Assembly (NCBI RefSeq): GCF_900104665.1
Contig: NZ_LT629969.1
Span: 653,716-717,715 of the forward strand
Direction: 5' to 3'
Source: Traorella massiliensis
Lineage (GTDB): Bacteria; Bacillota_I; Bacilli_A; Erysipelotrichales; Erysipelotrichaceae
Length of the DNA: 64,000 bases
Numbering within the stretch: the first letter of the stretch is position 1; every line of letters starts with the position of its first letter. Below are positions 56,605 to 61,577 of this stretch, in pieces. A program made the translations under genes and the position numbers. Under the pieces are notes generated by a model. The model made no database searches and was not told the DNA's origin. It saw only the letters and a list, made by a program, of their open reading frames with translations.

Positions 56605-56637
56605 GATAAAGATGAATTGAATCATGTGGAGGCTTCT

Positions 56638-57648
56638 ATGAAGGTTTGTCTATATTTTGAAGGAAAAAAAATCATCAAAACAAGTGGGATCGGCCGTGCT
56701 TTGAAACACCAGATGGCTGCTTGTGAATCAGCGGGCATCAGTTATACGCTTGATCCGGATGATGATTATGATGTTCTACATATCAACACGGTAGGGGTTA
56801 GCTCATTACCGGTAATTAATAAGGCAAGAGCTAAGGGGTGTAAAGTGATTTATCATGCACATTCCACAGAAGAAGATTTTCGTAATTCGTTTGTGTTAAG
56901 CAATCAGATCGCACCTGTTTTTAAGAAGATGCTGATTAGTTATTATTCAAAAGCAGATCTTATCCTGACACCGACACCATATTCTAAAAAACTGCTTGAA
57001 GGATATGGAATTACGGTGCCAATTTACGCTTTAAGCAATGGTATTGATCTGAATCGTTTTCATTATGATCCGGAAAAGGTCAAGGCGTTTCGACGATATT
57101 TTTCATTAAAAGATGAAGATAAAGTCGTTATTTCAGTTGGGTTGTATTTTGAAAGAAAAGGAATATTAGATTTTATGGAAGTAGCTGAAAATATGCCGGA
57201 TGTAAAATTTATCTGGTTTGGCTATACACCGCTAATTTCTATTCCCAAAAAAATAAGGGATGTGGTTACAGACGAACATCCGACAAATGTAATTTTACCG
57301 GGTTATGTTAAAGGAGCAGTTATTGAAGGAGCCTATGCAAATGCAGACTGTTTCTTTTTTCCAAGTTATGAAGAAACTGAAGGTATTGTAGTGCTGGAAG
57401 CACTAGCAAGCTCTCAGAATGTTTTGTTGCGTGATATTCCGGTATATGATCCATGGCTGGTTCATGGTCAGAATTGTTACAAAGGGAAAAATAACGAAGA
57501 ATTTATTGCTCAGCTCAGAAAGATTCTAAACCATGAATGTGCTGATTTAAGAGAACAGGGAAGGATCACTGCAGAAAAGAGAAGTATTCAGGAAGTAGGG
57601 CGAGAACTGAAAAAAATCTATGAGGGTGTTTGTGAGGGAAATATATGA
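56638..57648 (+). CDS. GT4-family glycosyltransferase
   Basis: A 336-residue GT-B glycosyltransferase. YHAHSTEEDF (N-domain), SNGIDLNRF, SVGLYFERKG and the C-terminal EETEGIVVLEALA (donor-binding E-x7-E) are recognisable. It resembles the second enzyme of Firmicutes diglucosyl-diacylglycerol synthesis (BgsA/LafA type). It is followed by a YbhN-like membrane protein and another GT4, as in glycolipid operons of lactic acid bacteria, so it probably makes the membrane glycolipid anchor (inference). TGTGGAGG precedes the ATG at 56638. Confidence 0.82.
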   Translation: MKVCLYFEGKKIIKTSGIGRALKHQMAACESAGISYTLDPDDDYDVLHINTVGVSSLPVINKARAKGCKVIYHAHSTEEDFRNSFVLSNQIAPVFKKMLISYYSKADLILTPTPYSKKLLEGYGITVPIYALSNGIDLNRFHYDPEKVKAFRRYFSLKDEDKVVISVGLYFERKGILDFMEVAENMPDVKFIWFGYTPLISIPKKIRDVVTDEHPTNVILPGYVKGAVIEGAYANADCFFFPSYEETEGIVVLEALASSQNVLLRDIPVYDPWLVHGQNCYKGKNNEEFIAQLRKILNHECADLREQGRITAEKRSIQEVGRELKKIYEGVCEGNI

Positions 57649-58667
57649 AAAAAGATTTTAAAAAATATGCCTTTAGCATCGTACTTTTGATTGGATTGAC
57701 CGGTTTTGCATTATGGTATGTGCTCAAGGATGATAAAGATGTGGTCTTAGCAGAATTAAGCAGCATTTCACCTTTAAATTTTATAGGTATCATGGCATGT
57801 TCACTTTTCTATTTTGCATTTGTGGCACTTTCACTTTATGTGATTGCAAAAGAAAAGTATCCGCATTATAAGTTTTTACCATCATTATCAAATGCCTATG
57901 TTGGAGGATTTTTTAGTGGTATTACGCCAAGTGCGAGCGGCGGACAGGTAGGACAGGTTTATGTTTTTTATAAACAGGGAATTGATTCTAGTGATGCAGC
58001 GGGCATTCTCTGGCTGGACTTTGTGATGTATCAGGTCGTATTGATTTTTTATACGACAGTGCTGGTTATTTTGCGTTTTCCAGTATTTTCAAGTCGTGTT
58101 CCAGCACTTTTCGTTATGATCTTTATTGGTTATCTGATGAATGGTGTCGTGTTGGCAATGCTGTTTTCGATGGCTTTTTTTCCTGTAAAATTTAAAAGGT
58201 TTTGTTTGAAAATAGTTACTTTGCTGCATAAGCTGCATTTAATACGTGACTCAGAAAAAGCACTGAAAAAATGTGATGATTATTTAGAGGCATTTACAAA
58301 TAATATCAATAAAAATAGAAGCAATAAGAATTTGATATGGAAATTAGTCTTAGTAAATATTATGCGTCTTACTGTTTATTATTCAATTCCTTTTATCATT
58401 GGAAAACTGATTCATGTAGATATGAATTTTCTTGATTCATTAGCACTTTCCAGTTATATTTCAATGGCTAATACTTTTTTCCCGGTACCAGGAGCCAGTG
58501 GCGGTACAGAAATGATGTTTCTACAGCTTTATTCTTTGATTTTACCATTGACACAAGTATCTACGATATTGATATTATGGAGGGTCGTGACTTTCCATTT
58601 GGCTTTGATAATAGGATGTATCATGTTTATTATTGAAAAGATTAGAAGAAGGAGGATCATTATATGA
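57645..58667 (+). CDS. YbhN/LPG-synthase-TM-like membrane protein
   Basis: A 340-residue protein with about seven or eight membrane helices from the UPF0104/lysylphosphatidylglycerol-synthase transmembrane family. The family block AYVGGFFSGITPSASGGQ near residue 85 and VPGASGGTEMMF near 285 are clear. No soluble aminoacyl-transferase domain follows, so it does not aminoacylate lipids itself; a lipid flippase is the favoured role. It overlaps both neighbouring glycosyltransferases by ATGA. Confidence 0.85.
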   Translation: MKKDFKKYAFSIVLLIGLTGFALWYVLKDDKDVVLAELSSISPLNFIGIMACSLFYFAFVALSLYVIAKEKYPHYKFLPSLSNAYVGGFFSGITPSASGGQVGQVYVFYKQGIDSSDAAGILWLDFVMYQVVLIFYTTVLVILRFPVFSSRVPALFVMIFIGYLMNGVVLAMLFSMAFFPVKFKRFCLKIVTLLHKLHLIRDSEKALKKCDDYLEAFTNNINKNRSNKNLIWKLVLVNIMRLTVYYSIPFIIGKLIHVDMNFLDSLALSSYISMANTFFPVPGASGGTEMMFLQLYSLILPLTQVSTILILWRVVTFHLALIIGCIMFIIEKIRRRRIII

Positions 58668-60655
58668 GAGTAGGACTATTTTCAGATACCTACCTGCCAG
58701 ATCTTAACGGGGTAGCTACAAGTGTAGAGACTTTGCGTAAGACACTGGAGGAGCATGGACATGATGTTTTTGTGATAGCAAACCATAAAGGTCTTTTGCA
58801 TTTAAAAAGTGAATGCAATATATTGCGGCTTCCAGGCATTGAACTGAAATGGCTATATGGTTATAATATGTCCTCTCCGTTACAGTTAAAAGCGAAAGAA
58901 GAAGTCAAGGCAATGAATTTAGATATCATACATGTACATACGGAGTTTGGAGTAGGTATCTTTGGACGGAATGTTGCGAAAGATTTAAATATTCCTATTG
59001 TTTCAACATACCATACGATGTATGAAGATTATACCCATTATTTGAATATTTTCGGATTAGAGATCGTTGATAAAGCTACAAAAACGCTTGTAAGCACCTT
59101 ATCTAAAATCTGGAATGATGCAGCACAAGTGGTCATTGCGCCTTCACAGAAAACAAAAGATACATTGATAAGATATGGTGTAAAAGCACCAATTCATATA
59201 ATTCCTACAGGAATTGATTTAAGTCAGTTTAATGTTAATAATATTGATCCTGCATTAGTAGCGAAGCTAAAAGAAAAATATGGTATTAATAAAGAAGATC
59301 AGGTCATTGTGTATGTTGGCCGTGTAGCTAACGAGAAATCAATTGATATCGTAATTCGAGGATTCAAGAAATATGCATTGGCTGATGAACATCATAAACT
59401 GATGATCGTTGGTGGCGGTCCTAGCCTTGATGAATTAAAAGAACTGGCAAAAACAGAAGGAATTGAAAAAAATGTGATCTTTACGGATCGTCAGGAAAGA
59501 AAGCTGATACCGGCGTTTTATGAATGTGCTGAGGCTTTTGTTAGCTGTTCTACAAGTGAAACACAAGGATTGACTTATATTGAAGCGATGAGTTGTTCGC
59601 TTCCTGTCTTTGCAAGAAAAGATGAAGTACTTTTAAATCTTATCGATGAAGGGAAAAGCGGTTATTTTATTGATGAAGATACTTTTTCAGACCGGTTATT
59701 TGATTTCTTTGCTCTCAGTGAAGAAAAAAGAAAAGAAATGGGACGATATGCCCGTGAAAAAATGATGGGATATGATACGGAAGTTTTTTATGAACGTGTA
59801 GCTGCCTGCTATGAACAAGCTTATGCTTCTTATTTTAAGACTTTGACCATTAAAAAAGTAAAGAGCAATAATGAGTATGTTACTTTAACTTTGAAAGATT
59901 CACAAGAAGAAGAGATTCAATGTATGGTTTCTCTGGAAGATTATTTTGCTTTTGAACTAAAAAAAGATGGTGTTGTTCATGAATTGACATTACAAGAACT
60001 GCAGCGTAGGGAAGTTATTTTAAAAGCCTGGATATTGTGTATAAAAAAACTGGCTGCTAAAGACCGTACACGTAAAGAAATGTATGATATTCTTTTAAAG
60101 GATAATACTTTAGATGCCAAGACAATGAATGATATGATTGATAAGCTGGAAGAAAAAGGTTATATCAATGATCAATCTTATCTGATGAATCATTTAGAAA
60201 AAATGAGTGATTCTTTGGAAGGAAAACAAAAAATCATTCGTACGCTTGTGAAAAAAGGACTTCCATATGAAATGGTCAAAGAAGGAGTAGATTCTTATAG
60301 TGATGCTTCTGAAAGAACAAAGGCAATACGTTATATCAAAAAGAATGAAAAGCTGATGAAAGAAGGCAGCGTTAAAATGAAAAAACAGATGTTGATTTCA
60401 CGTCTGATAAATCATGGCTATTCATTTGACACAGCTAAAGATGTCGTGAATAACTATGAATTTACAGATGACTTTCTCAATGATACGGATTCTTTATATA
60501 AAGCTATTCAGAAAGCGATACGTACGTATTCACGAAAATATAGTGGACAGGATCTTAAGCGCATGGTGTTGAATCAGCTGATACGTAAAGGATTCAGTTC
60601 TGATGATGTGTTAATGGCAATTGAAGAAATGGAGATTTTTAAAGATGAAAATTAA
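58664..60655 (+). CDS. GT4 glycosyltransferase fused to a complete RecX-like domain
   Basis: A 663-residue protein. Residues 1-390 are a GT4 enzyme like diacylglycerol glucosyltransferase (LFSDTYLPDLNGVATS, HVHTEFGVGIFG, PTGIDLSQF, YVGRVANEKS, STSETQGLTYIEAMSC). Residues about 391-660 match RecX from end to end: a beta N-terminal part (SLEDYFAFELKKDG), then helical three-helix units (LAAKDRTRKEMYDILL; LEEKGYINDQSYLMNHL; IIRTLVKKGLPYEMV; LISRLINHGYSFD; LNQLIRKGFSSDDVL). RecX modulates RecA. No stop, and no ribosome-binding site with ATG, separates the halves. It overlaps yhaM by 11 bp. Confidence 0.85.
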   Translation: MRVGLFSDTYLPDLNGVATSVETLRKTLEEHGHDVFVIANHKGLLHLKSECNILRLPGIELKWLYGYNMSSPLQLKAKEEVKAMNLDIIHVHTEFGVGIFGRNVAKDLNIPIVSTYHTMYEDYTHYLNIFGLEIVDKATKTLVSTLSKIWNDAAQVVIAPSQKTKDTLIRYGVKAPIHIIPTGIDLSQFNVNNIDPALVAKLKEKYGINKEDQVIVYVGRVANEKSIDIVIRGFKKYALADEHHKLMIVGGGPSLDELKELAKTEGIEKNVIFTDRQERKLIPAFYECAEAFVSCSTSETQGLTYIEAMSCSLPVFARKDEVLLNLIDEGKSGYFIDEDTFSDRLFDFFALSEEKRKEMGRYAREKMMGYDTEVFYERVAACYEQAYASYFKTLTIKKVKSNNEYVTLTLKDSQEEEIQCMVSLEDYFAFELKKDGVVHELTLQELQRREVILKAWILCIKKLAAKDRTRKEMYDILLKDNTLDAKTMNDMIDKLEEKGYINDQSYLMNHLEKMSDSLEGKQKIIRTLVKKGLPYEMVKEGVDSYSDASERTKAIRYIKKNEKLMKEGSVKMKKQMLISRLINHGYSFDTAKDVVNNYEFTDDFLNDTDSLYKAIQKAIRTYSRKYSGQDLKRMVLNQLIRKGFSSDDVLMAIEEMEIFKDEN

Positions 60656-61577
60656 CGAATTGACAGATGGAACACGTGGACGTTTTACATTTTTGTTGAG
60701 TTCACTTACAAAGGGAGTGACAAGCAAAGGAGCAACCTATCTTTCTTGTGTGCTTCAAGATAAGACTGGAAGTATTGATGCGAAATACTGGTCGCCTTCA
60801 AGTGAAGAGGTCAATACGCTTAAGCCTGGAATGATCTTAGAAATTGATGGAGAAGTTTTAAACTACAATAAACAGCTTCAGATGAAAATCAATGCAGTTA
60901 AGGTCATTGATCGTTCACAAATCAATTTAAATGATTTCATCAAAGAAGGGGAAATTCCTCGAAGTGAATTGAAAAAGAAAATCAGTGAAGTGATTGATTC
61001 ATTTGAAAACCAGACATTAAAAACATTGCTTCTTAAAGTTATGGAACATTATGAGCTTGATTTTTATAATTATCCTGCTGCTGCCAAGATTCATCATGAT
61101 TTTGTGGGTGGACTGGCAACGCATGTATGGGGGATGATCCGTTTATCTCTTGCAATTTGTGAGTGCTACCCTTCCTTAAATAAAGAATTGCTGTTAACGG
61201 GAGTCATATTGCATGATATCGGTAAATGTATTGAGCTGAGTGGTCCGGTAATTACTGAATATACAGTTGAAGGCAAACTTTTAGGACATATTTCTATCAT
61301 GCAGGCGATCGTAGCTGAAATTGCACACCAGAATGGATTAGAAGGTGAAGAGATTACTTTAGTACGTCATATGATTCTTTCACATCATGGTGAATATGAA
61401 TATGGTTCACCTGTATTGCCAATGATACCAGAAGCAGAAATTCTTCATTATATTGATAATATTGATGCTCGTATGAATGTGATTGCGAAAGCTTATGATG
61501 GAGTCAAAGAAGGAGAATTTACTTCTCGGCAGTTTGCACTTGAAAACAGATCTTTTTATAAAAGTCATTTGAAATAG
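60645..61577 (+). CDS. yhaM: 3'-5' exoribonuclease YhaM family
   Basis: A 310-residue protein: N-terminal OB-fold nucleic-acid-binding domain (about 10-90) and a C-terminal HD hydrolase domain with HDFVGGLATHVWGM, the HD pair in ILHDIGK at 190-191, and LSHHGEYEYGSP. YhaM trims RNA and DNA 3' ends. The ATG at 60645 is used (GGAG 10 nt upstream), inside the end of the GT-RecX gene. Co-transcribed with the glycolipid genes. Confidence 0.93.
   Translation: MKINELTDGTRGRFTFLLSSLTKGVTSKGATYLSCVLQDKTGSIDAKYWSPSSEEVNTLKPGMILEIDGEVLNYNKQLQMKINAVKVIDRSQINLNDFIKEGEIPRSELKKKISEVIDSFENQTLKTLLLKVMEHYELDFYNYPAAAKIHHDFVGGLATHVWGMIRLSLAICECYPSLNKELLLTGVILHDIGKCIELSGPVITEYTVEGKLLGHISIMQAIVAEIAHQNGLEGEEITLVRHMILSHHGEYEYGSPVLPMIPEAEILHYIDNIDARMNVIAKAYDGVKEGEFTSRQFALENRSFYKSHLK

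Follow-up and report, generated by a model that had tools for sequence, protein, structure and literature searches.

In a 64,000-nucleotide stretch of the Traorella massiliensis genome (the window hereafter), one gene encodes a glycolipid-type GT4 glycosyltransferase that continues directly into a complete RecX protein. The preliminary description had claimed such a single-chain fusion, and we find that it is real and that it extends across the order Erysipelotrichales, mostly gut-dwelling bacteria. We consider it likely that the product is a bifunctional single chain, which arose when overlapping, translationally coupled GT4 and recX genes merged and in which the two domains act independently. 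The functional coupling of envelope synthesis to DNA repair that had also been proposed is not supported, because the merging of overlapping operon neighbours explains the fusion and the two domains have been lost or split separately in relatives.

Table 1. Features of the fusion gene and its neighbourhood in the window.
Feature	Coordinates	Strand	Evidence
Upstream GT4, IagA/BgsA type (LTA glycolipid anchor, alDGS-like)	56617..57648	+	NF053513, E 1.9e-155, above cut-off
Flippase-like membrane protein, TIGR00374	57645..58667	+	4-nt overlaps (ATGA) with both neighbours
GT4-RecX fusion gene, 663 aa	58664..60655	+	Uninterrupted ORF, ATG start, TAA stop; domain matches; order-wide conservation
GT4 glycosyltransferase domain, GT-B fold, residues 1-388, MGS-like (monoglucosyl-diacylglycerol synthase type)	58664..59827	+	NF049988; invariant residues; GT4 matches in the PDB
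GT4 E-x7-E motif, E299 to E307, ETQGLTYIE	59558..59584	+	Sequence; both Glu invariant
Junction: last GT helix (372-390) to first RecX strand (393-401), no linker	59777..59866	+	Model; alignment of 65 fusions
RecX domain, residues 391-663	59834..60652	+	NF010733 match; RecX profile matches in the PDB; RecX_HTH3/HTH1
N-terminal beta part of RecX, residues 393-439	59840..59980	+	Model strands 393-401, 405-411, 417-423, 437-439
Four tandem three-helix RecX units, residues 440-655	59981..60628	+	Model helices
yhaM, 3'-5' exoribonuclease	60645..61577	+	NF010007, E 9.8e-110; start overlaps fusion end; GGAG at 60631-60634

Residues 1-390 had been described as a GT4 lipid glycosyltransferase, and an intact enzyme of this glycolipid type indeed occupies residues 1-388: Pfam places Glyco_transf_4 at 15-187 (E 1.6e-32) and Glycos_transf_1 at 201-365 (E 2.2e-32), and the best NCBIfam match is NF049988 (E 1.1e-75 over 1-387/398, nearly the whole length). 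The protein shows the GT-B fold, the E-x7-E motif and the conserved donor-site arginine and lysine of GT4 enzymes. G16, H117, R220, K225, E299 and E307 are invariant across 59 fusions, and the PDB structures matching the model are GT4 chains with Z of 24-32 (PimB' at 31, PimA at 29). The score against NF049988 stays below the equivalog cut-off for alMGS, the 1,2-diacylglycerol 3-glucosyltransferase (255.5 versus 400 bits), and we therefore call this half MGS-like rather than alMGS. alMGS itself, whose known activity is transfer from UDP-glucose to diacylglycerol, is a monotopic enzyme on the cytosolic membrane face, held there by an amphipathic helix (PMC6506492). By homology, the most probable reaction of the glycosyltransferase half is transfer of glucose from a nucleotide sugar to diacylglycerol at the inner membrane face, where it would work with the BgsA-type glycosyltransferase and the flippase-like protein whose genes lie upstream.

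The rest of the chain aligns with the NCBIfam RecX model NF010733 (PRK14135), residues 393-657 covering model positions 4-264 of 267 (E 6.7e-37), a coverage that marks the domain as complete. The earlier reading of residues ~391-660 as a full RecX with its beta part and tandem three-helix units is thus borne out, and the profile search that had been suggested as a check recovers both GT4 and RecX, the latter strongly beyond residue 390. In the full window protein Pfam calls RecX_HTH3 at 609-652 (E 1.1e-9, above the curated cut-off) and RecX_HTH1 more weakly, with HTH1 rising above its cut-off once the RecX part is scanned alone; RecX_HTH2 is not called in the window protein and is called in 22 of 36 fused relatives. 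An AlphaFold2 model built from 59 fusions (mean pLDDT 88.1) contains the GT-B fold and the RecX parts, and resolves the helices of the four units at 440-465/470-480/485-497, 503-516/521-530/535-543, 547-562/570-583/588-597 and 607-622/628-641/646-655; its pTM of 0.58 means that the placing of the two halves relative to each other is not to be trusted. A single-sequence model of the RecX part alone is poor (pLDDT 63). Note that the structure lists from Foldseek and VIA were filled by GT4 chains; the identity of the RecX half rests on the comparison of sequence profiles with the PDB, where a profile of 36 fused RecX parts matches 3e3v (2e-29), 3d5l (7e-26), 3c1d (5e-11) and 3dfg (4e-7). Free RecX of Bacillus subtilis (264 aa) modulates RecA and promotes disassembly of RecA threads (PMC3527212); the E. 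coli protein binds to inactive filaments of RecA (PMC9252578). The fused RecX would act in the same manner, binding RecA on single-stranded DNA and restraining or remodelling the filaments.

Conservation of the fusion across the family, another point that had been marked for checking, extends to the order as a whole: of the 52 order genomes in a class-wide sample, 49 have a match along the entire window protein. RecX is present in 235 of 244 genomes of a sample of the order and, among the matches listed, 126 of 150 lie in open frames of at least 620 aa. An uncultured Traorella, at 92% identity, is the closest named relative; among the named carriers are Dielma fastidiosa, Longicatena caecimuris, Amedibacillus dolichus, Breznakia pachnodae, Holdemanella and Faecalicoccus. 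The fusion also occurs in the order's other family (f2), with which a Coprobacillaceae record (Thomasclavelia) groups. Outside the order, the class-wide sample holds no fusion among the matches listed, glycosyltransferase matches ending near residue 390-410; nor does the phylum-wide sample among its listed matches, which came in practice from the same class and in which RecX frames measure about 170-350 aa.

Some order members depart from this pattern. No RecX was found in three genomes estimated to be 98-99% complete (G041, G062, G207), of which the first two also have no glycosyltransferase match and the third only a weak GT4 match. At a further locus (L012 of genome G061, 413-2289) the glycosyltransferase part of the fusion contains a frame break, as a pseudogene or through an assembly error; most relatives are intact.

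The arrangement from which the fusion would have arisen can still be seen among neighbouring families and in related genomes from metagenomes. There the genes run flippase-like, glycosyltransferase, recX, yhaM, and the two that are fused in the window remain distinct. Relative to the glycosyltransferase, recX lies in the +1 frame in every outgroup locus examined, and the two genes mostly overlap, out of frame, by ~23 nt, a length that is nearly constant across several families (loci L056, L060-L062, L067, L069 and L186 among others). The usual recX start in the outgroup is a GTG located 22 nt ahead of the final base of the glycosyltransferase stop codon, and the GGAGG-like ribosome-binding site of recX lies inside the last codons of the glycosyltransferase, with a Shine-Dalgarno match of at least 5 bases in most outgroup loci. 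Imagine an ancestor of this kind, with recX beginning within the last ~23 nt of the glycosyltransferase gene, in the +1 frame, under its own Shine-Dalgarno sequence and translationally coupled: a frame change on the scale of one base (an indel) within the overlap, at the base of the order, would have joined the frames with both domains kept, perhaps in a single mutational step. A glycosyltransferase tree (quick method) puts the order's orthologues into one clade (SH-aLRT 97) that contains fusions from both families, with the split genes and two sequences lacking RecX nested inside it. This is the pattern expected for one fusion followed by later reversals, and the tree fits a single such event at the order's base. 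Two other glycosyltransferases without RecX (G133, G169) sit on long branches within the outgroup and could be other enzymes.

Does the host possess any RecX other than the fused one? The preliminary description had advised looking for a stand-alone recX, and searching the genome (2.6 Mb, 99% complete) with two models turned up no such second gene, leaving the fusion as the only RecX detected, in a genome with one intact recA on another contig. Nor is there, across 65 fusions, a conserved internal start or Shine-Dalgarno sequence at the junction above background: Shine-Dalgarno matches of 4 or more bases occur there in 13 of 65 fusions compared with 20% of background windows, and in-frame starts preceded by a Shine-Dalgarno sequence are not enriched at the junction relative to the rest of the fusion gene. 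Given that no internal start is conserved, RecX is probably produced only as part of the fused chain; as far as sequences can tell, the arrangement with two products has disappeared with the fusion. We would expect the chain to stay uncleaved, proteolytic separation of the halves in the cell being possible. The likely physical outcome would be 1:1 production of the two halves, with RecX kept at the membrane or close to it. Such tethering is plausible, since alMGS, the relative that has been characterised, is a monotopic membrane enzyme of the inner face (PMC6506492). Most RecX in fusion carriers would then meet RecA at the membrane, unless the chain is cleaved.

It might be argued that the fusion has been kept for this very reason, either because membrane-tethered RecX regulates RecA or because lipid synthesis responds to DNA damage. 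The argument can draw on a fusion that is conserved in two families and has seldom been split, on a RecX that has no independent start, on the monotopic membrane nature of alMGS-type enzymes (PMC6506492), and on the static polar foci that B. subtilis RecX-YFP sometimes forms in competent cells (PMC3527212). However, the merging of overlapping genes requires no functional link, no interface or joint conserved motif between the halves was identified, and the two halves occur apart in relatives. In three related species it is split again into adjacent genes (L163-L165). RecX sits beside yhaM with no glycosyltransferase at L166, L167 and L175-L177, species group g4 likewise has RecX next to yhaM and lacks a glycosyltransferase there, and conversely the glycosyltransferase occurs without RecX in G114, where a close homologue lies elsewhere in the genome, and at L162. 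Genome G085 (L181, 4761-5918, minus strand) encodes a 385-aa RecX protein whose first ~108 residues resemble a worn glycosyltransferase remnant; the first 60 match the glycosyltransferase profile weakly (E 0.0026, a single sequence), and this single-contig genome yielded no further match to the glycosyltransferase. With separations in both directions, we read the domains as acting independently, neither seeming to need the other, and functional coupling strikes us as unlikely. We are a little more doubtful still of its strictest form, in which the order's only RecX is obligately tethered and control of RecA filaments takes place at the membrane, where it depends on or reports to glycolipid synthesis. 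If the chain is instead a bifunctional product of merged neighbours with independent domain functions, as the sequences suggest, the fusion would persist because it is little harmful or modestly beneficial, for example through matched dosage; its long persistence in both families could point to some advantage other than a merger by chance.

A different scenario is that the RecX part no longer acts on RecA and has become an appendage of the glycosyltransferase, for oligomerisation or for binding of lipid or nucleic acid. At first sight the scores seem to allow this, since fused RecX parts fall below the curated RecX equivalog cut-off: the window RecX reaches 127.6 of the 240 bits set for NF010733, at full coverage. 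Yet 240 bits is reached by none of 392 phylum genomes, most of them with unfused recX, so that this cut-off does not discriminate here. Note, nonetheless, that with both halves below their NCBIfam equivalog cut-offs neither the exact glycosyltransferase substrate nor RecA activity is assured by homology. More tellingly, RecX_HTH3 and RecX_HTH1 are recognised in 36/36 and 35/36 fused members, as often as in unfused members of the order (17/17 and 16/17) and in the outgroup (17/21 and 16/21). The fused RecX is the only one found, beside an intact recA, and RecX outlives the glycosyltransferase in several lineages. Set against the glycosyltransferase, fused RecX has not diverged faster than its unfused outgroup counterparts, and at equal glycosyltransferase divergence fused RecX parts are at least as similar as the unfused outgroup ones; together with the HTH recognition, this comparison excludes degeneration of RecX in the fusions. 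Against the 92% relative, dN is 0.045 in either half, with dS at 1.8 in the glycosyltransferase and saturated in RecX. The low dN relative to dS in the glycosyltransferase, the saturated dS in RecX, the recognised domains and the invariant residues indicate purifying selection on both halves. We regard the appendage scenario as quite improbable, and hold to a RecX half that would still bind RecA.

That sequencing or assembly joined two genes, for instance through an error removing a stop or frameshift as the preliminary description had cautioned, has next to no likelihood: nothing at the window locus was found to support it, and the same fused frame recurs, down to 32% identity and within one clade, across dozens of genomes obtained independently from isolates and metagenome assemblies (named strains of Dielma, Longicatena, Amedibacillus, Breznakia and Faecalicoccus included), which identifies a true single-gene fusion.

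In the window, the fusion belongs to a tightly packed series that runs pyrG, the BgsA/IagA-type GT4, the flippase-like gene, the fusion and yhaM, the two immediate neighbours being those named previously. The true start of yhaM is probably the ATG at 60645, 11 nt inside the 3' end of the fusion. yhaM lies directly 3' of recX, fused or not, in 118 of the 120 related loci with room to see it (outgroup 26/26, fusions 70/71, unfused order members 22/23), and the adjacency survives loss of the glycosyltransferase. A survey of Firmicutes recX reported no conserved genomic context (PMC3527212); the recX-yhaM pair is such a context, missed by that survey.

In surveys from 2005 (PMC1193525) and 2012 (PMC3527212), recX of Firmicutes figures as a gene on its own, distant from recA. 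Our literature search, which covered non-subscription papers, found no report of a fusion between RecX and a glycosyltransferase; domain databases may list the architecture, which we rate as a new combination of two known families. Its interest lies in an order-wide fusion of proteins from unrelated processes for which the overlapping, fused and re-split states are all visible, and which thus provides a clean case of overlapping operon genes merging. It also allows one to ask, in a natural setting, if RecX functions when attached to the membrane. In addition, it reveals which protein is the RecX of Erysipelotrichales, one that annotation as a glycosyltransferase could mask.

How does the fusion compare with systems already described? 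With the alMGS-type GT4 of Acholeplasma laidlawii, the glycosyltransferase half shares the full-length match, the GT-B fold, the E-x7-E motif and an adjoining second glycosyltransferase of BgsA/alDGS type; it differs in scoring below the equivalog cut-off, in carrying a C-terminal RecX, and in an N-terminal half that is near neutral rather than clearly basic. Set beside the long stand-alone RecX of Firmicutes (B. subtilis RecX/YfhG, 264 aa; PDB 3e3v), the RecX half has the same length of ~270 aa, the same N-terminal beta part, tandem three-helix units and NF010733 coverage, and, like other Firmicutes recX, a position far from recA (PMC1193525), whereas it has no start codon of its own and is covalently joined to a glycosyltransferase. 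A third counterpart is the overlapping glycosyltransferase-recX-yhaM cluster of neighbouring Bacilli families (for example L056, L062, L067, L186), which has the same gene order, usually with the flippase-like gene upstream; there, two genes overlap by ~23 nt in different frames, whereas in the window they form one chain.
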